Shown piece after piece: positions 54,877-64,000 of a DNA stretch of 64,000 nucleotides. A program made the position numbers and the translations under genes. Positions within the stretch are counted from its first letter, which is position 1. Each line of letters begins with the position of its first letter. The DNA is from an uncultured Trichococcus sp. (GTDB lineage Bacteria > Bacillota > Bacilli > Lactobacillales > Aerococcaceae), in NCBI RefSeq assembly GCF_963667775.1, contig NZ_OY764015.1, positions 2,469,001-2,533,000 on the forward strand, written 5' to 3'. The notes beneath the pieces are model-generated. The model was not told the DNA's origin, searched no databases, and saw nothing but the letters and a program-made list of their open reading frames with translations.

Positions 54877-55464
54877 ATGAATAAAAATAAACGTTTGATC
54901 TATATTTCATTATTGGCGGCGCAGGGTGTGGTCATCACGCTGCTGGAGCGGGCGATTCCGTTTCCGTTCGCGTTTGCGCCGGGTGCGAAGCTGGGGTTGG
55001 CGAACATCATTACATTACTGGCGATCTTTACGCTACCGTACAAAGATAGTTTCAAGGTTGTGTGGATGCGGTTGTTGATTTCGACGTTGTTGGGTGGGAC
55101 GTTATCGACCTTCCTGTACAGTTTTGCGGGGGCCTTTTTGAGTTATGGCGGGATGCTTTTGGTCCGGCTTTTGGGGCCGAAGCGGGTCAGCATGATCGGC
55201 ATCAGTGCGACCGGTGGGATTCTGCACAATGTCGGCCAGTTGGCGATGGCGAGTCTGATTGCGCAATCGTTCAGCGTGATGCTCTACTTGCCGATCCTTT
55301 CCGTGACCGGCATCTTCTCGGGAATCGCGGTCGGGGTGGCGGCGAATTACTTGTTGGAGCACGTTTCGACGATCCGTCAGTTCCAATCGGAGGAGGCCGC
55401 TAAAAGTAAATTGACGAAAGCGTGGTATGAGGCTTCACTGGTCTATCGGAAAGAGCATGACTAG
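54877..55464 (+). CDS. eetB: EetB-like membrane protein (Gx transporter family)
   Basis: 195 residues, about five to six spans with Gly-rich helices (GAKLGLANIITLLA and ISATGGILHNVGQLAMA), the Gx_transp family sometimes labelled heptaprenyl diphosphate synthase component I. In Listeria EetB works with EetA in flavin-based extracellular electron transfer, probably passing electrons from demethylmenaquinol to the surface flavoprotein. The symbol follows from family and from eetA, ndh2, dmkA and dmkB nearby. AAGGAC precedes the ATG. Confidence 0.85.
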   Translation: MNKNKRLIYISLLAAQGVVITLLERAIPFPFAFAPGAKLGLANIITLLAIFTLPYKDSFKVVWMRLLISTLLGGTLSTFLYSFAGAFLSYGGMLLVRLLGPKRVSMIGISATGGILHNVGQLAMASLIAQSFSVMLYLPILSVTGIFSGIAVGVAANYLLEHVSTIRQFQSEEAAKSKLTKAWYEASLVYRKEHD

Positions 55465-55532
55465 CGTTTTGTTGCGGGTACCTCTCCAATGCGAAAGGTT
55501 TTGCGATGCTGCCTGAGGAAGAAAATAAGGTG

Positions 55533-55580
55533 AACAGGATGGGGAAATGCTCATAGAGGCACTTTCCCCATCCTGTTTTC
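55533..55580 (+). terminator. Terminator after eetB
   Basis: AACAGGATGGGGAAA and TTTCCCCATCCTGTT form a long stem ending in TTTTC. The rest of the gap to rnfC has an A+T-rich promoter-like stretch (about 55650-55680), not assignable with confidence. Confidence 0.88.
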
Positions 55581-55801
55581 AGGTTCTGGACGGGCAAGGA
55601 TTCACAAATGGCTGTACGCCCCTTTTTCGCATAGGGCTCATAGTTGAATTGTGCTTGTATTTACGTTAATATAAGAATAAAAGAAAGCCCTTTCAAAACG
55701 CTTGTGTTTTTATTAACGAAGTCGGATTTGTAAGGTAGGCGGAATGCTGTTGGGTAACGCCAAAGGATCATCCATTTTGCCGGACAGAGAGGAGCATATT
55801 T

Positions 55802-57127
55802 ATGTGGTTTTCCATTAAACGAACCTTGAAAGGCAGTCATCCTGACCCAGAAAAATCACGGACTGAAAACAAGGGGATCGAAGTGGCGTCCGTTCCGCGG
55901 ACGTTAGTCTTTCCTTTGAATATGCATATCGGGGCTCCTGCGAAGCCTGTTGTAGCCGTTGGTGAACCCGTCAAAGCCGGAACGTTGATTGCAGCCGGAG
56001 TTGAAGGCATCTCGGCCCATGTGCATGCCTCCGTATCGGGGATTGTGCTGGCCATCGAAAAGCGCTTGACTGTCAAAGGTATGGCCGATTGTATCGTCAT
56101 CAAGAATGATGAGGCCTATGAAGCGGAAGCCTGGCCGGAACGTACGGAGGAATCCTTGACAAAAGCGGATATCCTGAAAGCGGTCAAAGATGCAGGCATC
56201 GTCGGTATGGGCGGCGCGCAGTTCCCGACGCACATAAAGTACGCGGTCGATGATCCTGGCAGCATCCATACCCTCATCTTGAATGGTGCAGAGTGTGAAC
56301 CCTATGCCACAGCCGATGATCGGCTTATGAGGGAACATCCTCAGGAAATCCTGCAAGGGATGACTCTGATCAAGCGCTTGTTCCCGATAGAGCAGGCCAT
56401 TGTCGGGATAGAAGCGAATAAACCGGATGCGATCCTGAGCATGGAGGAAGCGGCAAAAGGATTCGACGGCATCGTCATCCAGTCTTTGCCGGAGCTTTAT
56501 CCGCAAGGGGATGAAGAAACGCTCATTGCCACCATCACCGGGAAGCAAGTCCCTGCAGGCAAGCTGCCGAAAGATATCGGTGTCATCGTTTCGAATGTGG
56601 CGACCGCTTTCGCCGTCCAGCAAGCTGTATATGCCGGCAAGCCGCTCATCACAAGGGTAGTGACCGTTACCGGGACCCCGCTCAAAGAACCGAAAAACCT
56701 TCTGGTGCGCATCGGAACCCCGATCGAATCAGTGCTGGAGGACTGTGGAGGGTTCGCTGCAATTCCTGGTGCGATCATCCATGGCGGTCCGATGATGGGT
56801 CATGCTGTCGAAAATACTTCGGTTCCGATAGTGAAAGGGACTTCCATCATCCTGACGCAAACCGCTGAAGAGGCTGGTCTGGAAGAGAGGATGCCCTGCA
56901 TCCGCTGTGCCCAGTGCCTGGAAGTTTGTCCTGTCAAGTTACAGCCGGTATTGATCAGTGAAGCGTATGAACGCGGGGATATCAAACGGGCAGAGGAGCT
57001 TGGCGCCATGGACTGTATCGAATGCGGGAATTGCAGCTATATCTGTCCATCGAAGATTCCTTTATTGGATCATATTCGGGGAGCTAAACAGCGCATTCGT
57101 GAACAGCGGAAGGCAGGTGTGAAATGA
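55802..57127 (+). CDS. rnfC: RnfC-like electron-transport protein
   Basis: 441 residues, close to RnfC without the long C-terminal repeats of enteric homologues. In order: N-terminal barrel-sandwich domain (HIGAPAKPVVAVGEPVKAG), the FMN/NADH-binding region like complex I subunit 51K (GMGGAQFPTHIK, LNGAECEPYATADDR), SLBB domain and two [4Fe-4S] motifs, C366-x2-C369-x2-C372-x3-C376 and C405-x2-C408-x2-C411-x3-C415. It would oxidise NADH in the cytosol at the membrane. GAGGAG precedes the ATG; the stop overlaps rnfD. rnfA, B, E and G are absent here. Confidence 0.92.
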   Translation: MWFSIKRTLKGSHPDPEKSRTENKGIEVASVPRTLVFPLNMHIGAPAKPVVAVGEPVKAGTLIAAGVEGISAHVHASVSGIVLAIEKRLTVKGMADCIVIKNDEAYEAEAWPERTEESLTKADILKAVKDAGIVGMGGAQFPTHIKYAVDDPGSIHTLILNGAECEPYATADDRLMREHPQEILQGMTLIKRLFPIEQAIVGIEANKPDAILSMEEAAKGFDGIVIQSLPELYPQGDEETLIATITGKQVPAGKLPKDIGVIVSNVATAFAVQQAVYAGKPLITRVVTVTGTPLKEPKNLLVRIGTPIESVLEDCGGFAAIPGAIIHGGPMMGHAVENTSVPIVKGTSIILTQTAEEAGLEERMPCIRCAQCLEVCPVKLQPVLISEAYERGDIKRAEELGAMDCIECGNCSYICPSKIPLLDHIRGAKQRIREQRKAGVK

Positions 57128-58191
57128 TGGGAAACACAAAATTGCAAGAAGAAAACTTGGTCGTCAAAATGTCTCCGCATATCCGGGCAAAGAACACATC
57201 GCAATGGATCATGCTGCAAGTGATCATCGCGCTCCTGTTCCCGACGGTTGCCGGAACCATTATCTTCGGTCCGAAAGTGCTTGCTTTTGTTTTGGTTGGC
57301 GCGACAGCAGCGGCTTTTTCGGAATTTGTGTACCAAAAGCTGTTTGGCAAACAGGTGACCGTCAGTGATTTGAGTGCAGCTGTAACAGGCATGCTGATCG
57401 GATTGACGATGCCCTATGCTGCCAAGCTGTCGACGACCGCACTGCTGTCTGTTTTGGCGATCGTTATATTCAAGCAACTCTTCGGAGGCATCGGCCGCAA
57501 TGTCCTGAACCCAGCAGTAGCTGTCAGGATGGGATACCTTTTGCTTCCTTGGATTTGGCTGGAACTTTTCCCTCAATATGATGTCATCACCACGGCTAGC
57601 TCCAAAGATGCTGTTTTGGCGAAGTTTGTGACGACCGGTGCAACAGATGCAGTTGATGCCGTATCCAGTTCGACACCCCTTTACCATATCGGTGGTGGCG
57701 CTACGGCAGTGAAAGAGGGATTGCCGGACTTGCAAAGAATCTTCTTCGGCTACGAGATGGGCGGGTACGGTGGAGCTGTTGGTGAAACATGCAAATTTGC
57801 CATTTTGATTGCCTTGTTGTATCTGATTCTCCGCCGCATCGTCAATCCGAAGATTCCTTTGTTGTACTTTGCGACCTGCGCCGTCATTGCGCTTTTGAAA
57901 TCCGGATTTGATTTCGAGTTCATGCTCTATCATCTGTTTACAGGGGCCATCATTTTCGGCGGAGTCTTCATGATTACCGATTATACGACGGGTGGACTCA
58001 CGCCTATGGGGCAGACGATTTTTGCTGTAGGGTGCGGTATCCTTACGATGGCATTCCGCTTTGGGGATTACTCTCCGGGAGGGGTCGGTTTTGCGATTTT
58101 GATCATGAATCTGTTGATTCCGGTTATAGATCGGTTTACGTCTCCGAAAATCGTTGGCCACGAAAAAAGGCCGAAAGCTTTCAGAAGTTGA
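57124..58191 (+). CDS. rnfD: RnfD-like membrane flavoprotein
   Basis: 355 residues, about ten spans, RnfD/NqrB family. Family blocks: MLIGLTMPYAAKLS and GGIGRNVLNPAVAVR. The expected covalent-FMN site appears as AVSSSTPL with Thr184; the usual RnfD/NqrB form has Ala-Thr, so SST is a variant to verify. It shares ATGA with rnfC. With RnfC it could carry electrons from NADH across the membrane to an external flavin. ApbE encoded 5 kb downstream could attach its FMN. Confidence 0.92.
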   Translation: MMGNTKLQEENLVVKMSPHIRAKNTSQWIMLQVIIALLFPTVAGTIIFGPKVLAFVLVGATAAAFSEFVYQKLFGKQVTVSDLSAAVTGMLIGLTMPYAAKLSTTALLSVLAIVIFKQLFGGIGRNVLNPAVAVRMGYLLLPWIWLELFPQYDVITTASSKDAVLAKFVTTGATDAVDAVSSSTPLYHIGGGATAVKEGLPDLQRIFFGYEMGGYGGAVGETCKFAILIALLYLILRRIVNPKIPLLYFATCAVIALLKSGFDFEFMLYHLFTGAIIFGGVFMITDYTTGGLTPMGQTIFAVGCGILTMAFRFGDYSPGGVGFAILIMNLLIPVIDRFTSPKIVGHEKRPKAFRS

Positions 58192-58289
58192 CGCGCTAAG
58201 CGCTGGCTTTATCATTGAACCTATTCCGAACAGTCTGCCAGAAGTTATTTTTGGGGGACTGTTTTTTATTTGTGGAAAACTCTCAGGTT

Positions 58290-58318
58290 TTGCATGGACA
58301 ATTATTCACAAGTACACT
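58290..58318 (+). promoter_or_regulatory. Promoter of ndh2
   Basis: TTGCAT and TACACT are separated by 17 nt. A half Rex-like sequence, TTCACAA, lies in the spacer, but no matching second half is present. Confidence 0.5.
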
Positions 58319-58396
58319 ATACTTATAAAAGTGGTTATTTTAAATAAGTGAATAGGCGCAGGGATGCGCTGGACATAGAAAAAAGGAGACTACCTA

Positions 58397-60265
58397 ATGA
58401 GTAAGAAGAATATTGTGGTTGTGGGAGCAGGTTTCGCCGGTGTGGCCGCCGCGAAGAAATTGTCCCGACATTTCAAAAAAAATCCGGATGTCTTGATCAC
58501 TTTGATCGACAGACATTCCTACCAGACATATATGACCGAGTTGCATGAGGTGGCGGCGGGACGTGTGCAGCCCGATGCGATCCAATACGATCTGCAACGT
58601 CTGTTCAGCCGTAACCGGAACGTGGACATCGTCACTGACGAAGTGACCCATGTGGACCGTGAGAAGAAAGTCGTGACGACCAGCAGCCACAGCTTCAGCT
58701 ATGATTACCTGATCCTGGCAATGGGCGGAGAACCGAATACGTTCAACGTACCGGGCGTTGACGAGCATGCCTTCACGATGTGGTCTTGGGAAGATGCGAA
58801 CAAAATTCGCCGTCATATCCAGGATACGGTCGAAGCAGCCGCAAATGAACATGATGATGCGAAGCGCAAAGCGATGCTGACGGCAGTAGTCAGTGGGGCT
58901 GGTTTTACCGGCGTGGAACTGGTCGGCGACTTGATGGAATGGAAAGACTATCTGGCAAAAGCCAACAAGTTGGATCCGGCTGAATTCAGCCTCTATCTGG
59001 TTGAAGCTGCACCACAGATTTTGGGCGTCGTAACCGAAAAGGAACAACAAAAAGCTGAGAAATACATGCTGAAAAAAGGCATCCAGATCATCAAAGGCAA
59101 TGGGGTCGCCAACGTCAAGAAGGACAGCGTCGAGTTGTCTGACGGAACGGTGATTCCGACACACACGCTGATCTGGACGGCAGGTGTAAAAGCCAACACG
59201 GATGCAGCGGCTTACGGCATCGAGCAAGCAAGAGCGGGCCGTTTGGTAGCCAACAAATACATGGAAGCGAAAGATTCCGAAGGCGTCTACTTGGCGGGTG
59301 ACTTGGTCTACTACGAAGAGCCTGACAAAGACAACGCACCGGTCCCGCAAATCGTTCAATCCGCGGAACAAACAGGGCACACAGCCGCAGCCAACATCAT
59401 TGCCTCCATTGAAGGTACTGAGAAGCACGAACACAAAGGCACCTACCAAGGATTCATGATTTCGATCGGTTCCCGTTATGGCGTTGCCTACTTGATGGAC
59501 AAAATCCATTTGAGCGGTTTCTTCGCGATGCTTGTGAAGCACATCGTGAATTTATTCTACTTCATGACGATCGGCTCAGGCTATTATTTCGTGCAATACA
59601 TCTATCATGAATTCTTCCATATTAAAGACAAACGCAACATTTTCCGTGGGCACTTGTCCCGTTTGGGCAATGTACTCTGGGCACTGCCGTTGCGCGTCTT
59701 CTATGGCAGCATGTGGACATGGGAAGCGCTCAAGAAGATCTACGGCCTGTACGGTACGACTTCTTGGTTCGGCGATGATGTCGTCCTGCCGTTCGCTTGG
59801 CTGAAGGAAGCGACGACCGGTGCATCCGAAGCTGTAACGGAAACAGTCAGTCATCCTGTCTTCGGTTTGAGCTATGCATACGGTGAAGAACCGATGATGA
59901 TCTTCAAAGAAGCACCTGAGTGGTTCAACAGCATCATGAAAATCATGATCCCGAACGTGGAAATGGCTTTGTTCTTCCAGAAATTCATGACAATCGTCGA
60001 GTTGCTGATCGGTTTGGCGATCATCGCGGGCTTGTTCACGTTCTTGGCGAATGCCGCAACAATCGCATTGGTGATTTCGTTCTCCTTATCCGGCATGTTC
60101 TACTGGGTGAACATGTGGTTCATTCCGGTGGCCATCGCCTTGATGAACGGTTCAGGCAGAGCCTTCGGGTTGGACTACTATGTGATTCCGTGGATCCAGA
60201 AGAAACTTGACAACTGGTGGTACGGTAAGACAAAATCAATCTATAGACCGGGCGTCGGTCAATAA
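58397..60265 (+). CDS. ndh2: Type II NADH dehydrogenase with C-terminal membrane extension (Ndh2)
   Basis: 622 residues against ~400 for ordinary NDH-2. Residues 1-~385 are the two-Rossmann flavoprotein: FAD-binding VVGAGFAGVAAA (~8-19), NADH-binding VVSGAGFTGVELVG (~170) and the second FAD block GVYLAGD. Residues ~385-622 have several hydrophobic spans (around 385-405, 535-590) of DoxX-like character. This two-part form is the EET-specific Ndh2 known from Listeria, which reduces a separate demethylmenaquinone pool. AAAAGGAG precedes the ATG. Confidence 0.93.
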   Translation: MSKKNIVVVGAGFAGVAAAKKLSRHFKKNPDVLITLIDRHSYQTYMTELHEVAAGRVQPDAIQYDLQRLFSRNRNVDIVTDEVTHVDREKKVVTTSSHSFSYDYLILAMGGEPNTFNVPGVDEHAFTMWSWEDANKIRRHIQDTVEAAANEHDDAKRKAMLTAVVSGAGFTGVELVGDLMEWKDYLAKANKLDPAEFSLYLVEAAPQILGVVTEKEQQKAEKYMLKKGIQIIKGNGVANVKKDSVELSDGTVIPTHTLIWTAGVKANTDAAAYGIEQARAGRLVANKYMEAKDSEGVYLAGDLVYYEEPDKDNAPVPQIVQSAEQTGHTAAANIIASIEGTEKHEHKGTYQGFMISIGSRYGVAYLMDKIHLSGFFAMLVKHIVNLFYFMTIGSGYYFVQYIYHEFFHIKDKRNIFRGHLSRLGNVLWALPLRVFYGSMWTWEALKKIYGLYGTTSWFGDDVVLPFAWLKEATTGASEAVTETVSHPVFGLSYAYGEEPMMIFKEAPEWFNSIMKIMIPNVEMALFFQKFMTIVELLIGLAIIAGLFTFLANAATIALVISFSLSGMFYWVNMWFIPVAIALMNGSGRAFGLDYYVIPWIQKKLDNWWYGKTKSIYRPGVGQ

Positions 60266-60277
60266 TAACGATCTAAC

Positions 60278-60317
60278 AGGGTTAAGGTGGGGAGACTTGC
60301 CTTAACCCTTTTCTTTT
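60278..60317 (+). terminator. Terminator or attenuator between ndh2 and eetA
   Basis: AGGGTTAAGG and CCTTAACCCT, 12-nt loop, followed by TTTCTTTTC, directly before the eetA ribosome-binding site. Confidence 0.75.
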
Positions 60318-60337
60318 CGAAGGAGAGGGATGGGGAA

Positions 60338-60763
60338 ATGAGAAAGTACCTGAGAATGATCCGCAGAGGCGATCTGCTCATCATCCTTTTTTTGATGGCG
60401 GCTTCCTTCCTGCCGTTGGGAGTCTTCAGCTATCATCAAGCCAACGCAGAGAGCGCGGATAAAATTGCGGTCGTCAGCGTTGACGGAAAAGTGGTGAAGG
60501 AGTTTGTCCTGAAGGATGATGGAAAAACGGAAACGTTTGTTTTCCATGATGACCATGGGCATGAGAACGTGATCGTGCGCGAAGGGGATCAAATCCGGAT
60601 TGATTCCGCCGATTGCGATGACCAATTGTGTGTGCGCATGGGCGCTAAGGATGACATCGGGGAGACGATCATGTGTCTGCCGAACCGTGTGCTGGTGGAA
60701 GTTCGCGGCGCTGATGGAGCTTCCACTGATGAAGATGAAGAGGCCCTCGACATCATCTCCTGA
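60338..60763 (+). CDS. eetA: EetA-like protein (NusG domain II)
   Basis: 141 residues from ATG 60338 (AGGAGAGGG upstream). One N-terminal span (~12-30), then an extracytoplasmic NusG_II beta-domain with DSADCDDQLCVRMG, where two Cys are five apart as in the family, and a Ser/Asp/Glu tail. In Listeria EetA is needed for ferric iron reduction together with EetB. It is followed 34 nt later by the polyprenyl synthase gene. Confidence 0.87.
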   Translation: MRKYLRMIRRGDLLIILFLMAASFLPLGVFSYHQANAESADKIAVVSVDGKVVKEFVLKDDGKTETFVFHDDHGHENVIVREGDQIRIDSADCDDQLCVRMGAKDDIGETIMCLPNRVLVEVRGADGASTDEDEEALDIIS

Positions 60764-60797
60764 CAAATACCTAAGGGCAGAACAAAAGGAGTTTTGT

Positions 60798-61778
60798 ATG
60801 AAAATTCATTCGATGTGGGACCAATATCCGCTGTTGCAGTCGGAATTGGTCGCCACCAATGAGCTGTTGGAAAAAAACATAACGCTCAAGAACCAGGCGG
60901 TCAGGGAAGCGATTCTGGCTAGGCTGCTTTCGGGCGGAAAAATGCTGCGTCCGGCCTATTGCCTGCTGTTTTCCCACTATTCCCCGCAACGGGATGCGGA
61001 GCGGGCGCAGGCGATTGCGGCCGCGGTTGAGCTTTTGCATACCGCAACGCTGATGCATGATGATGTGATTGATGAAGCCGGCACCCGCCGAGGCCAGGAG
61101 ACGATGAACCGGGCATTCGGCAATCAGATTGCCGTCTATTCGGGGGATTACCTCTTCACGGTCTGCTTCCGGCTACTGTCCCAGTATGCCGGCAACGCCG
61201 ATGTGCTGAAGCTCGATACGACCGGGATGGAGAGCATCCTGATCGGCGAGCTGAACCAGATGGATATGCGCTACAATCCGAACATGCGCATGCGCGATTA
61301 CTTGCGCCAGATTCAGGGAAAGACGGCCCAACTGTTCGCGCTGAGCTGCTATGCCGGGGCCTATGGTTCGGACGAGGACGAGAAGTTTGCGCAGTTGGCC
61401 TACCGAATCGGTCACGATATCGGCATGGCCTTTCAGGTCATGGATGATGTTTTGGACTACACGCAGGACGAAGAAACATTGGGTAAACCGGCTTTGAGCG
61501 ACTTTCGCAACGGCATCTACACCGCGCCTGTGCTGTATGCGATGCAGGCCGACCGGAAGGTGTTTGCTCCTTACATCGCAAAGGGGGCGGATGTGACAGA
61601 GGAGGAACTTGCGAAGATCCATGCTTTGGTGGAACGCTATGGCGGTAATCGCGCCGCACAGGCTTTGGCCAAGAAGTACACAACCAAAGCGCTGAAACTG
61701 ATCAAAAAATTGCCGGACCATCCCGTAAAGGAAACGCTAACGAAATTAACTGAGCAATTGCTTTATCGCAATATGTAG
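60798..61778 (+). CDS. dmkB: Polyprenyl diphosphate synthase (DmkB/HepT-like)
   Basis: 326 residues from ATG 60798 (AAAAGGAG 6 nt upstream). All-helical trans-isoprenyl synthase: first Asp-rich motif HDDVIDE (D88, D89, D92), GGKMLRP and second motif MDDVLDY (~216-220). It builds the isoprenoid tail for demethylmenaquinone, the lipid carrier of EET. Chain length cannot be read from the sequence here. Confidence 0.9.
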   Translation: MKIHSMWDQYPLLQSELVATNELLEKNITLKNQAVREAILARLLSGGKMLRPAYCLLFSHYSPQRDAERAQAIAAAVELLHTATLMHDDVIDEAGTRRGQETMNRAFGNQIAVYSGDYLFTVCFRLLSQYAGNADVLKLDTTGMESILIGELNQMDMRYNPNMRMRDYLRQIQGKTAQLFALSCYAGAYGSDEDEKFAQLAYRIGHDIGMAFQVMDDVLDYTQDEETLGKPALSDFRNGIYTAPVLYAMQADRKVFAPYIAKGADVTEEELAKIHALVERYGGNRAAQALAKKYTTKALKLIKKLPDHPVKETLTKLTEQLLYRNM

Positions 61779-61924
61779 CGAATCTGTAAGGGCACATTTC
61801 GTGGAGGTAGCCTCTCGTTTAGAGATAAATATTAGAAAATAATAGTTTTTGCTAAATATACGGCTTTTATTTGGCTAAAGATGTAACAAATGGTATGATA
61901 AGTAAGTGGATAGATATAGGGGGC

Positions 61925-61958
61925 TTGTGATTGGTATCACATATCTAGCCATTATAAT
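61925..61958 (+). promoter_or_regulatory. Promoter of the FMN lipoprotein with Rex/FNR-like operator
   Basis: The palindrome TTGTGA-N6-TCACAT (61925-61942) matches the Rex box TTGTGA-N6-TCACAA except at the last base and contains a perfect TGTGA-N6-TCACA (Crp/FNR family). It covers a TTGGTA -35 (61931-61936); TATAAT is at 61953-61958, 16 nt away. Repression by Rex until NADH rises would be logical; which regulator binds is not known. Confidence 0.65.
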
Positions 61959-61983
61959 AAAAAAGAACAGGGTGGGATAGATT

Positions 61984-62529
61984 ATGGAATTAAAGAAAAC
62001 GTTATCTACAGCAACTCTTTTGTTGGCATCAACTTTCGTATTAGCAGCTTGCGGAGGTGCCGATACAGACACAGAAACTGAATCTTCAGAAGTGGCTTCA
62101 TCCGAAGTTGTAGCTGAGTCTTCTTCAGAAGCTACTTCAGAAGCGGCAGCTGAATTACAGGACGGCACGTACACATTGGTTGAAAAGAACTTCGACACAC
62201 GTGGCTGGAAAACTGAATTCTCGATCACTGTCGTGGACGGCAAAATCACAGAGTCAACTTTTGACAACGTGAACGAAGCCGGCGTGAAAAAATCCGAAGA
62301 TGCAGACTACCAAGCGAACATGTCAGAAAAAGTTGGCGTAGGCCCTGCTGACTACTTCCCAGCATACAACAGCCAATTGGTTGAAACACAAGATCCTGAA
62401 GCGGTGGAAGTCGTTACTGGCGCTACAAGCTCTTATGATGCATTTAAAGAGTATGCTCCATTGTTGGTTGAAGCAGCTGAAGCTGGCGACACAACTACAA
62501 TCGAAATCGATAACGTAGTCGCAGAATAA
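61984..62529 (+). CDS. FMN-binding surface lipoprotein (PplA-like, single domain)
   Basis: 181 residues. Signal peptide with lipobox FVLAAC, lipidated Cys23. Residues 24-60 form a Ser/Glu/Ala/Thr linker likely to span the wall; ~62-170 is one FMN_bind domain starting LQDGTYTLVEKNFDTRGW. The ApbE target motif VVTGATSSYDAF puts the FMN on Thr148. Listeria PplA has two such domains; one here is also the RnfG arrangement. It is the expected terminal carrier to outside acceptors. GGTGGG precedes the ATG. Confidence 0.9.
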   Translation: MELKKTLSTATLLLASTFVLAACGGADTDTETESSEVASSEVVAESSSEATSEAAAELQDGTYTLVEKNFDTRGWKTEFSITVVDGKITESTFDNVNEAGVKKSEDADYQANMSEKVGVGPADYFPAYNSQLVETQDPEAVEVVTGATSSYDAFKEYAPLLVEAAEAGDTTTIEIDNVVAE

Positions 62530-62548
62530 GCTGGTTTTCTGCTTTTTT
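62519..62548 (+). terminator. Terminator after the FMN lipoprotein gene
   Basis: GCAGAA and TTCTGC pair around the stop codon, followed by TTTTTT. A second stem, GACAGGTAGG/CCTGCCTGTC plus TTTTT (62581-62620), follows before apbE. Confidence 0.75.
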
Positions 62549-62643
62549 AGGCGGAATCAGGAATAAAAAAGATTATAATAGACAGGTAGGGACAGCGTTC
62601 TTGTTCCTGCCTGTCTTTTTAAATGCAGATATGGGGTGAATCG

Positions 62644-63699
62644 ATGAAGAAATATATAAATATGGCCGGAGTGGCGAGTGTGCTATCGCTGGCGCTGCTT
62701 TTCGGAGGCTGCGGCAATGGGGATGCGCCGGGGCTTTTGAAAGAGCCGTACGAGAAAACGGAATTCCTGATGGGGACCTATGTGACGGTGCGCGTCTACG
62801 ATGAAGGGAAGGAGGCTGTGCTGGAAAAGGCCTTCGACCGCGTAGAGGAGCTGGCGGATAAAATTACAGTGAATGAACCGGGATCGGAGATCGATGCGAT
62901 CAATGCTGCGGCAGGTGCGGAGGTGGAGCTGTCGGAGAGTGTTTATCCGTTGGTACGGAGCGCTTGGGATTACAGCGAAGCATCCAATGGTAATTTTGAT
63001 CTGTCGATCGGGCCGATCACGGAGCTGTGGCATATCGGCTTCGAAGATGCCCGCAAGCCGGAGCAGAGCGAAATCGATGCGGCGTTGCCGTTGGTTGATT
63101 ATGAGCGCGTCGTGCTGGATGATGCGGCAAAGACTGTTCAGTTGATGGATGAAGGGATGCTGATCGACTTGGGCGCCATCGCCAAGGGCTACATCACCGA
63201 CGAAGTGAAGGCGTTGCTGGTGGAGGAAGGTGTGACGACCGCCATCATCGATCTCGGCGGCAACGTCTATGTGTTGGGTGGATCACCGCTGCGCGAAGGG
63301 GAGTCCTGGAACGTGGGCATCCAGGATCCATTGGCAGTGCGCGGGGAAACCATCGGAAAGACGAAGCAAAAGAATCGTTCGATCGTGACTTCGGGCATCT
63401 ATGAACGCTACATCGAAGTGGATGGGGTCAGCTACCACCATCTGATGGATCCGGAAACGGGCTATCCGTTCGATAACGACATCGCCGGCGTGTCGATCTT
63501 ATCCGAAAAATCGATCGACGGGGATGCTCTCTCGACGCTTGTGTTCGGTCTAGGTGTCGAAGCGGGGCTGGCCTACGTCAACGAACGCGGCGATATTGAA
63601 GCCGTTTTTGTCACAAAGGACAAGAAAGTCTACGTTTCTGAAGGGTTGACGGATAATTTTGAACTGACGAATGACGATTACGTTTGGGAAAATGAATAG
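62644..63699 (+). CDS. fmnB: FAD:protein FMN transferase (ApbE/FmnB)
   Basis: 351 residues from ATG 62644 (GGGGTGA upstream). Lipobox LFGGC anchors it outside. The ApbE fold has MGTYVTV at the start, LDLGAIAKGY-like IDLGAIAKGYITDE (~180), HHLMDPETGYP (~260) and DGDALST (~295), which bind Mg2+ and FAD. It attaches FMN to Thr in (S/T)GAT(S/A) motifs, such as that of the adjacent lipoprotein, and possibly RnfD. It is followed 11 nt later by dmkA. Confidence 0.93.
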   Translation: MKKYINMAGVASVLSLALLFGGCGNGDAPGLLKEPYEKTEFLMGTYVTVRVYDEGKEAVLEKAFDRVEELADKITVNEPGSEIDAINAAAGAEVELSESVYPLVRSAWDYSEASNGNFDLSIGPITELWHIGFEDARKPEQSEIDAALPLVDYERVVLDDAAKTVQLMDEGMLIDLGAIAKGYITDEVKALLVEEGVTTAIIDLGGNVYVLGGSPLREGESWNVGIQDPLAVRGETIGKTKQKNRSIVTSGIYERYIEVDGVSYHHLMDPETGYPFDNDIAGVSILSEKSIDGDALSTLVFGLGVEAGLAYVNERGDIEAVFVTKDKKVYVSEGLTDNFELTNDDYVWENE

Positions 63700-63710
63700 G
63701 GGTGAAAGAG

Positions 63711-64000
63711 ATGAATGTACCTGGATTTTTGGAATTTGTGGAAATCAAGACAAAATTGGCGAGTTTGTTTCCGTTTGTGTTGGGGACTTTGTTTACGCTC
63801 TACCGTTTCGGCAGCATCAATGCGCTGAATACAATTTTATTCTTCATCGCCATGGTCGTTTTTGATATGGCGACGACTGCCATCAACAACACGATGGACT
63901 ATGTGAAGGCGAAGAATCTGGTTTATCGTGATGAGGAAAACATCCTCGGGAAAGCTGGGATTTCCGTCGGACAGGCTGCGAAAATAATCATTTCGATGAT
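63711..64000 (+). CDS. dmkA: DmkA-like UbiA-family prenyltransferase, 5' part
   Basis: ATG 63711 follows GGGGTGAAAGAG, and the frame stays open to the window end (96 codons). The visible part has membrane helices and the first Asp-rich site INNTMDYVKAKN of UbiA/MenA enzymes. It likely prenylates 1,4-dihydroxy-2-naphthoate to give the demethylmenaquinone used in EET, with the tail made by DmkB. Confidence 0.85.
   Translation, partial: MNVPGFLEFVEIKTKLASLFPFVLGTLFTLYRFGSINALNTILFFIAMVVFDMATTAINNTMDYVKAKNLVYRDEENILGKAGISVGQAAKIIISM

Follow-up and report, generated by a model that had tools for sequence, protein, structure and literature searches.

As far as the published excerpts drawn on here describe it, the Rnf complex (RnfABCDGE) routes electrons outward through its membrane subunit RnfD (PMC11889175, PMC9588780), and in the structure from A. 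woodii the cofactors of RnfC align toward RnfD, which passes electrons on to periplasmic RnfG (PMC11889175). Within the same limits, the RnfD-like protein of NQR/RNF-like systems is described as having an NqrF-type NAD domain joined to it by fusion and as having lost its flavinylation site (PMC8238504; PMC10979944). Genes for extracellular electron transfer (EET) are known to occur beside Rnf, and in 572 clostridial genomes Rnf is accompanied by eetB, which encodes a subunit of a flavin adenine dinucleotide (FAD) exporter (PMC9973259). RnfD has also been named generally as an electron-transfer protein, and rnfD noted in a relative of the strain under study (PMC12501876). Here we describe an rnfC-rnfD pair (rnfCD) within a Listeria-type EET locus of an uncultured Trichococcus sp. 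The window, i.e. the whole stretch of DNA analysed, comprises 64,000 nucleotides (G000:C1:2469001-2533000) of a 3.32-Mb one-contig genome, G000, and the EET locus starts at its position 54877. We propose that rnfCD is a stand-alone half of Rnf, an arm leading from NAD(H) to extracytosolic flavin that would export the electrons of NADH without quinone; judged on sequence, this reading has a probability of roughly 0.58. In this species the pair probably serves as a second entry to EET. Among the open-licence papers of PubMed Central (PMC) listed by the literature searches, none was seen to describe an RnfCD unit standing alone.

The original prediction, made from the DNA alone, had placed overlapping rnfC and rnfD genes between eetB and ndh2, and family models confirmed this arrangement:

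55802-57127, + strand: rnfC (NADH/flavin mononucleotide (FMN) domain, SLBB, two 4Fe-4S clusters; 441 aa); TIGR01945, 512 bits against a cut-off of 246
57124-58191, + strand: rnfD (membrane subunit, 355 aa); TIGR01946, 214.7 bits against a cut-off of 207

The overlap is 4 bp, and RnfD matches PF03116 only, with no C-terminal PF00175 domain. The pair had also been predicted to stand apart from rnfA, rnfB, rnfE and rnfG. For RnfA and RnfE this holds: PF02508 gave 0 matches in the whole genome, where a strongly diverged copy could be missed, and a control search with this model found matches in 4 of 14 known genomes. The case of an rnf operon elsewhere that lacks its own C and D is excluded to the same extent, and a complete Rnf scattered over the genome was rejected, there being no RnfA/E. 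The single PF03116 match in the genome is the rnfD of the locus. No RnfG candidate was found either, because the FMN_bind search returned only the PplA-like lipoprotein of the locus and a broken flavinylation locus at ~481 kb. As to RnfB, the prediction stands for the genes read in the locus, among which there is no rnfB; neither this nor any other genome was searched for it. The flavinylation locus at C1:481.1-482.5 kb (L036 5066-6500) appears to have decayed: beside an ApbE remnant with several stops lies a 208-aa frame containing two FMN_bind domains, whose counterpart in five genus members is an FMN_bind frame of 552-553 aa.

The occurrence of such pairs was surveyed in 395 genomes drawn from the Lactobacillales. 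RnfD was found in 61 of them (two of 11 in the genus of the window), with RnfA/E (PF02508) over the cut-off in seven and in none of the remaining 54, one of which carries a broken RnfD (G339). Three RnfD genomes (G037, G084, G351) gave a PF02508 match of ~21 bits, below the cut-off. We read 61 loci, namely 60 fetched RnfD regions (including one complete rnf operon, L049) and the window locus, and rnfC lies directly upstream of rnfD in every one (61/61). Two pairs share one locus in G147 and in eight of the nine RnfD genomes of genus g35, which includes Alkalibacterium pelagium, A. thalassium and A. subtropicum; two pairs also occur apart, on two contigs in G077 and far from each other in G092. 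From 77 RnfD matches, 69 stand-alone copies and the L049 copy were aligned; the seven left out are six from complete operons and the broken one of G339. When the search was extended outside the order, 24 of the best 80 of 583 RnfD-profile loci had RnfC and RnfD and no match to RnfA/B/E/G within the locus stretch (queries from L049, E 1e-4). Three of these (L125, L163, L174) end shortly after rnfD; ten of the 21 remaining belong to genomes already in the order set, and the other eleven, known as locus stretches only, include Amphibacillus, Proteiniclasticum, Acetoanaerobium and Anaerococcus. A class-level survey with PF03116 matched 29 of 259 genomes (27 over the cut-off), exceeding 200 bits only in G000 and G002, both Lactobacillales. 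The other 27, from outside the order, show weak PF03116 stretches of <50 bits (<=88 summed per frame; e.g. G571:C108:55277-55924), a putative RnfD-like family. As a separate observation, two short chromate-transporter genes lie as a pair convergent to rnfCD in 19 of the 61 loci, in both RnfC clades (L045 7568-8677, L047 6105-7246, L059 8189-9309 and 16 more; PF02417 was found in the two genes scanned, from L045).

RnfC had been credited with both 4Fe-4S clusters and a complete flavin/NADH region, and the corresponding motifs are present: the window protein has GxGGAxFP, ECEP and two CxxCxxCxxxCP sets. GxGGAxFP and both cluster sets recur in 70/70 RnfC, one of which comes from a complete rnf operon, and ECEP in 66/70. 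For RnfD, residues were mapped through the alignment from the positions given for the C. tetanomorphum Rnf in the available part of PMC9588780. The threonine for covalent FMN (T153 in C. tetanomorphum) is kept in 69/69 stand-alone RnfD, as are the equivalents of Asp248 and Asn124 (riboflavin/Na+ site), Glu185 and Arg130. In the window RnfD the flavinylation motif DAVSSST stands at residue 178, which makes T184 the predicted site of covalent FMN, and N129/D286 represent the riboflavin site. DAVSSST conforms to the ApbE site D-x-x-[ST]-x-x-T; the EVVTGAT of the PplA-like lipoprotein has E for D. Among these stand-alone copies the equivalent of Asn90, the proposed Na+ exit, is Ser/Thr in 59 and Asn in 10, and variation is also seen at two FMN-contact residues (Ser284, Gly237). 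In seven complete Lactobacillales RnfD (L006-L012) the flavinylation site has the form D-x-[VI]-[ST]-x-A-[ST]-Y-F, with Ser replacing Thr in three of the seven, and the 69 stand-alone copies read T-P-L instead. As to residues, the NADH-to-outside arm of Rnf looks whole, and the ferredoxin arm was not seen, with RnfB outside the searches made.

These data bear on the idea that the pair is a vestigial remnant of a lost Rnf complex. A model of Nqr origin, as outlined in the available part of PMC4014512, holds that RnfB loss renders RnfC non-functional, so that its sites are expected to be lost. By the motifs examined, such a loss has not happened here, RnfB again lying outside the search. Besides that model, the patchy occurrence of the pair and the one broken copy (G339) would suit a remnant, an explanation to which we assign next to no weight: cofactor residues are kept throughout (69/69 RnfD, 70/70 RnfC), and two pairs stand within one locus in eight of nine g35 RnfD genomes. 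The vestigial pair was rejected since it is contradicted by purifying selection, the ratio of nonsynonymous to synonymous substitution rates (dN/dS) between G000 and the related species G234 being ~0.1 (rnfC 0.10, rnfD 0.11).

In the half-Rnf we propose, NADH would be oxidised at the FMN of RnfC, and electrons would cross the two 4Fe-4S clusters of RnfC to riboflavin and then to the covalent FMN of outward-facing RnfD, whose flavin would be supplied by EetB, through FAD export, and by ApbE. The acceptor here would most likely be the PplA-like lipoprotein, flavinylated by ApbE and bearing an FMN domain like that of RnfG; elsewhere its place could be taken by soluble acceptors or by different flavinylated proteins. 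This would give the window species a quinone-free second EET entry beside Ndh2 and demethylmenaquinone, and in genomes without an EET-type Ndh2, RnfCD could be the main EET entry. The pair might instead run inward, taking up electrons from reduced outside flavin to NAD+. In ferredoxin-driven Rnf, electrons do go via RnfD and RnfC toward NAD+ according to the parts of PMC11889175 and PMC9588780 used here, but we hold this direction to be very unlikely for the isolated pair on grounds of general bioenergetics: the potential of a surface-flavin donor would likely be higher than that of NAD+/NADH, and electrons moving inward would do so against the membrane potential.

Beyond what had been predicted, rnfCD was found to be inserted as a unit relative to the sister species, bounded by its own hairpins. 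The unit and its borders are as follows:

55532-55578, + strand: strong terminator-like hairpin 3' of eetB, with a 15-bp perfect stem; 55525-55590 folds at -32.1 kcal/mol
55610-58278, + strand: inserted rnfCD unit, from blastn against three of the eight sister loci without the pair (G361, G357, G060)
55639-55691, + strand: possible promoter region, in common with the stretch upstream of G234 rnfC (77% over 53 nt)
58228-58264, + strand: hairpin followed by a T-rich stretch after rnfD, intrinsic-terminator-like; folds at -19.8 kcal/mol

Searched with the window Ndh2, ten of 13 genus members gave a full-length match, and eight members of the genus (L097-L104) have eetB-ndh2-eetA-dmkB-pplA-apbE-dmkA in the same order without rnfCD. 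The three sister loci compared by blastn are collinear with the window up to 55609/55610 and again from 58279-58286, which places the insert at ~55610-58278. Its flanks are 35-nt imperfect direct repeats (55575-55609 and 58279-58313; 25/35 identical), and to the right of the insert the region preceding ndh2 remains intact, including a promoter-like site. Possibly 55639-55691 acts as a promoter region; a consensus scan gave no + strand site there. Termination at the eetB and rnfD hairpins is likely rather than shown, since the consensus terminator scan, covering loops of 3-8 only, listed neither. We considered rnfCD as a member of the eet operon and rejected this on account of the hairpins on both sides and its absence from the eight sister loci. 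In G234, rnfCD lies upstream of eetB, a different position within this EET locus; its proteins are 88-90% identical to those of the window and the hairpin after its rnfD folds at -16.3 kcal/mol. G000 and G234 may have acquired rnfCD once or twice: between them the dS values of rnfC (0.52) and rnfD (0.62) fall within the 0.33-0.80 range of the seven other genes of the locus, and the branches of the EET-gene tree that bear on this carry 51-58% support.

The remainder of the locus agrees with the original prediction of a Listeria EET set. The gene names were confirmed by Pfam and NCBIfam, and eetA, eetB, ndh2, dmkA, dmkB, pplA and apbE are all present together:

54877-55464, + strand: eetB, energy-coupling-factor S (ECF-S)-like FAD export subunit (PF07456, Pfam 162.6 bits; function as given in the available part of PMC9973259)
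58397-60265, + strand: EET-type ndh2 with C-terminal membrane part (Pfam/NCBIfam; 88-98% identity in 9 other genus members)
60287-60763, + strand: eetA, NusG_II domain (Pfam)
60798-61778, + strand: dmkB, polyprenyl diphosphate synthase (Pfam/NCBIfam)
61984-62529, + strand: PplA-like lipoprotein with one FMN_bind domain (22.9 bits against a cut-off of 22) and EVVTGAT at residue 142
62623-63699, + strand: apbE/fmnB, FMN transferase (Pfam 281.7 bits)
63702-64000, + strand: dmkA (UbiA), continuing past the window to 64652 (Pfam/NCBIfam; L001 9702-10652)

Against the NCBIfam PplA model the lipoprotein scores 198.5 bits over 177/302 positions and does not reach the cut-off of 325.

EET genes adjoin rnfCD in four of the 61 loci, which represent three lineages of the RnfC tree: the window, G234, G223 (apbE divergent, then eetA-eetB-rnfC-rnfD, in a genome without EET-type Ndh2) and G092 (eetA-rnfC-rnfD). 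A Lachnospiraceae metagenome-assembled genome (L135) has eetA-eetB-lipoprotein-apbE-rnfC-rnfD, and the remaining 3 kb of the stretch contain no further rnf gene; the L135 lipoprotein contains DLASSAT and DLAASVT stretches (motif by eye) and has no Pfam match over the cut-off. The complete clostridial rnf operons L126 and L139 also have eetA, eetB and apbE alongside.

The EET-type Ndh2 was traced in the 61 RnfD genomes with the window protein as query (E 1e-50, reaching the C-terminal part); weak matches of 23-25% near rnfCD (L045, L062, L077) were not counted as EET genes. It is present in 48 genomes, in some of them in pieces (e.g. G089, G232). The 13 without it are nine g35 genomes, G092, G147, G165 and G223; eleven gave no match, and G165 and G223 have a shorter type II NADH dehydrogenase (NDH-2) only. 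This fits an entry that bypasses Ndh2, as had been proposed. In G165, eetA-eetB stand beside apbE, apart from its rnfCD. ApbE is found in 61/61 RnfD genomes and in 292/334 others (353/395 overall; Fisher p 0.001), and FMN_bind, counted by eye, in 55/61 versus 217/334 (Fisher p 3.8e-5); neither test corrects for shared ancestry, and neither was treated as decisive. The A. pelagium genome (G084) combines two RnfCD pairs, EetB with ApbE and a PplA-like gene (L202 6467-6955) with no EET-type Ndh2 match at E 1e-50. Of the nine g35 genomes with RnfCD, four (L202-L205) have the PplA-like gene, in one conserved neighbourhood, and three g35 genomes without RnfD (G021, G107, G115) gave no PplA match.

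Several observations weigh against a role in EET, and the proposal of a second entry stands only in part. In 57 of the 61 loci no recognised EET gene lies within ~10 kb (less at contig ends), so that the pair usually stands outside EET loci. Furthermore, rnfCD is absent from the EET locus in eight of the ten genus members with full-length EET ndh2; hence EET does not need the pair. PplA, found in 51 of the 61 RnfD genomes, tracks EET-type Ndh2 (46/48) better than Ndh2-less RnfCD (5/13; in fragments in G037), which limits the predicted choice of the lipoprotein as acceptor. Of the eight Ndh2-less genomes without PplA, four have some FMN_bind match (G077, G092, G147, G175), and four (G069, G099, G165, G223) have neither PplA nor any FMN_bind protein at the cut-offs used. 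For the latter, RnfD would remain as the sole ApbE client observed, barring FMN domains too weak to be detected; the window PplA-like protein itself matches FMN_bind at E 8e-5, and that of G234 was missed by the Pfam model and found by protein search. Part of the linkage could be accounted for by the flavinylation requirement alone. Association with EetA, EetB and ApbE may mean only that RnfD requires flavinylation, because EetB exports FAD and eetB co-occurs with Rnf; deletion of eetA in Listeria is reported to have no EET phenotype in the available part of PMC9973259.

Hence RnfCD may be a transmembrane NADH oxidoreductase for another extracytosolic acceptor (flavinylated reductases, free flavins, or a partner in the envelope or in oxidative stress). 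Its presence in the EET locus of two species would then reflect a common requirement for flavinylation through EetB/ApbE, or insertion by chance. The 57 loci without EET genes nearby would suit this, as would the convergent chromate-transporter pair adjoining rnfCD in 19 loci and the presence of EetB beside ApbE in all nine g35 RnfCD genomes and in the three read without RnfCD. G092, which has no EET-type Ndh2 and no PplA match, has three other proteins with flavinylation motifs (175, 599 and 400 aa). We nevertheless consider another acceptor rather unlikely, as EET genes adjoin rnfCD in three lineages and in L135, and two related species carry the pair at two spots of the same EET locus.

A further observation concerns clade B, the Enterococcaceae-type clade of the RnfC tree (16 stand-alone rows). 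In 11 of its 16 loci a same-strand protein, 184-200 aa long except in L079 (135 aa), is encoded behind rnfD, starting within 28 bases of it in ten of the 11 (L042 9025-9591, L045 8824-9399, L083 10397-10951, L090 8806-9378 and seven more). Pfam gave no match for the five of these proteins scanned. Beyond the 11 themselves, the profile of this protein hits nothing but RnfA from complete operons (50 at E <=1e-3), and hhalign against three RnfA gave 96.6% (E 6.8e-10). No cysteine is conserved across nine aligned copies, and the three RnfA keep two (C26, C114), which we take to bind a [2Fe-2S] cluster. The protein looks like an RnfA retained as scaffold after loss of its redox part, and a degenerate RnfA-like protein is as expected if the other arm of Rnf was lost.

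The RnfA-like gene could also mean that RnfCD still pumps ions, in a complex with partners that have diverged or are encoded elsewhere. The PF02508 search did not report the clade B genes, so that a similar partner could be missed in clade A; the equivalents of Glu185, Asp248 and Asn124 are kept, and G037, G084 and G351 have the PF02508 matches of ~21 bits below the cut-off. A pump is nonetheless unlikely in our view: the RnfA-like protein has no conserved cysteine in the nine aligned copies, its profile found no match in the clade A stretches read, and the Asn90 equivalent is Ser/Thr in 59/69 RnfD.

On the half-Rnf reading, the NADH-oxidising arm of an ion pump would act alone as an electron exporter, illustrating the modularity of Rnf, and EET would gain a second, quinone-independent entry. 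A broader proposal, which we advance tentatively and at somewhat less than even odds, is that RnfCD is an autonomous quinone-free transmembrane NADH:extracellular-acceptor reductase, common in Lactobacillales and occurring outside them too. On this proposal it would spread as an independent unit, could join EET loci and would have replaced Ndh2 in some lineages, including Alkalibacterium, a genus with indigo reducers. If true, it would directly answer how Ndh2-less Alkalibacterium sends NADH electrons outside.

Listeria-type flavin-based EET (Ndh2/demethylmenaquinone/PplA) shares its locus gene set with the window; here a second NADH-oxidising membrane pair is added, and the PplA-like protein has one FMN domain, whereas Listeria PplA presumably has two, as the length of the PplA profile also suggests. 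For the PplA orthologue cAD1 an evolutionary or functional link with RnfG has been proposed, and the available part of that source states that cad-apbE occurs only in genomes without rnf genes (PMC7074142); here, by contrast, pplA-apbE and rnfCD share one locus. A. pelagium is treated as an EET organism in PMC10572741 as well, the available part of which reports an ndh-2-like gene, no PplA, and a correlation of 0.93 between RnfC orthology K03615 and dyeing intensity (PICRUSt2 inference). In contrast, A. pelagium as analysed here has two RnfCD pairs and a PplA-like gene, and no match to EET-type Ndh2 (E 1e-50).

With the Rnf complex the pair shares full-length RnfC and RnfD homology, including the NADH/FMN, two 4Fe-4S, riboflavin-site and covalent-FMN residues; it differs in that the genome has no RnfA/E and no RnfG candidate by the searches made, which did not cover RnfB. 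With no ferredoxin arm seen within that scope, a U-shaped electron path is not expected. NQR/RNF-like systems have likewise been proposed to be a one-way half of Rnf/Nqr leading from NAD(P)H to an extracytosolic FMN protein (PMC8238504; PMC10979944, in the parts available), whereas here the NADH module is a separate RnfC and the flavinylation threonine is kept. In the same sources Rnf is called by RnfB and the NQR/RNF-like class by the fusion. The bare RnfCD pair displays neither defining feature, and for this reason we file it, on its gene and residue content, as a variant set apart from both Rnf and the NQR/RNF-like class.

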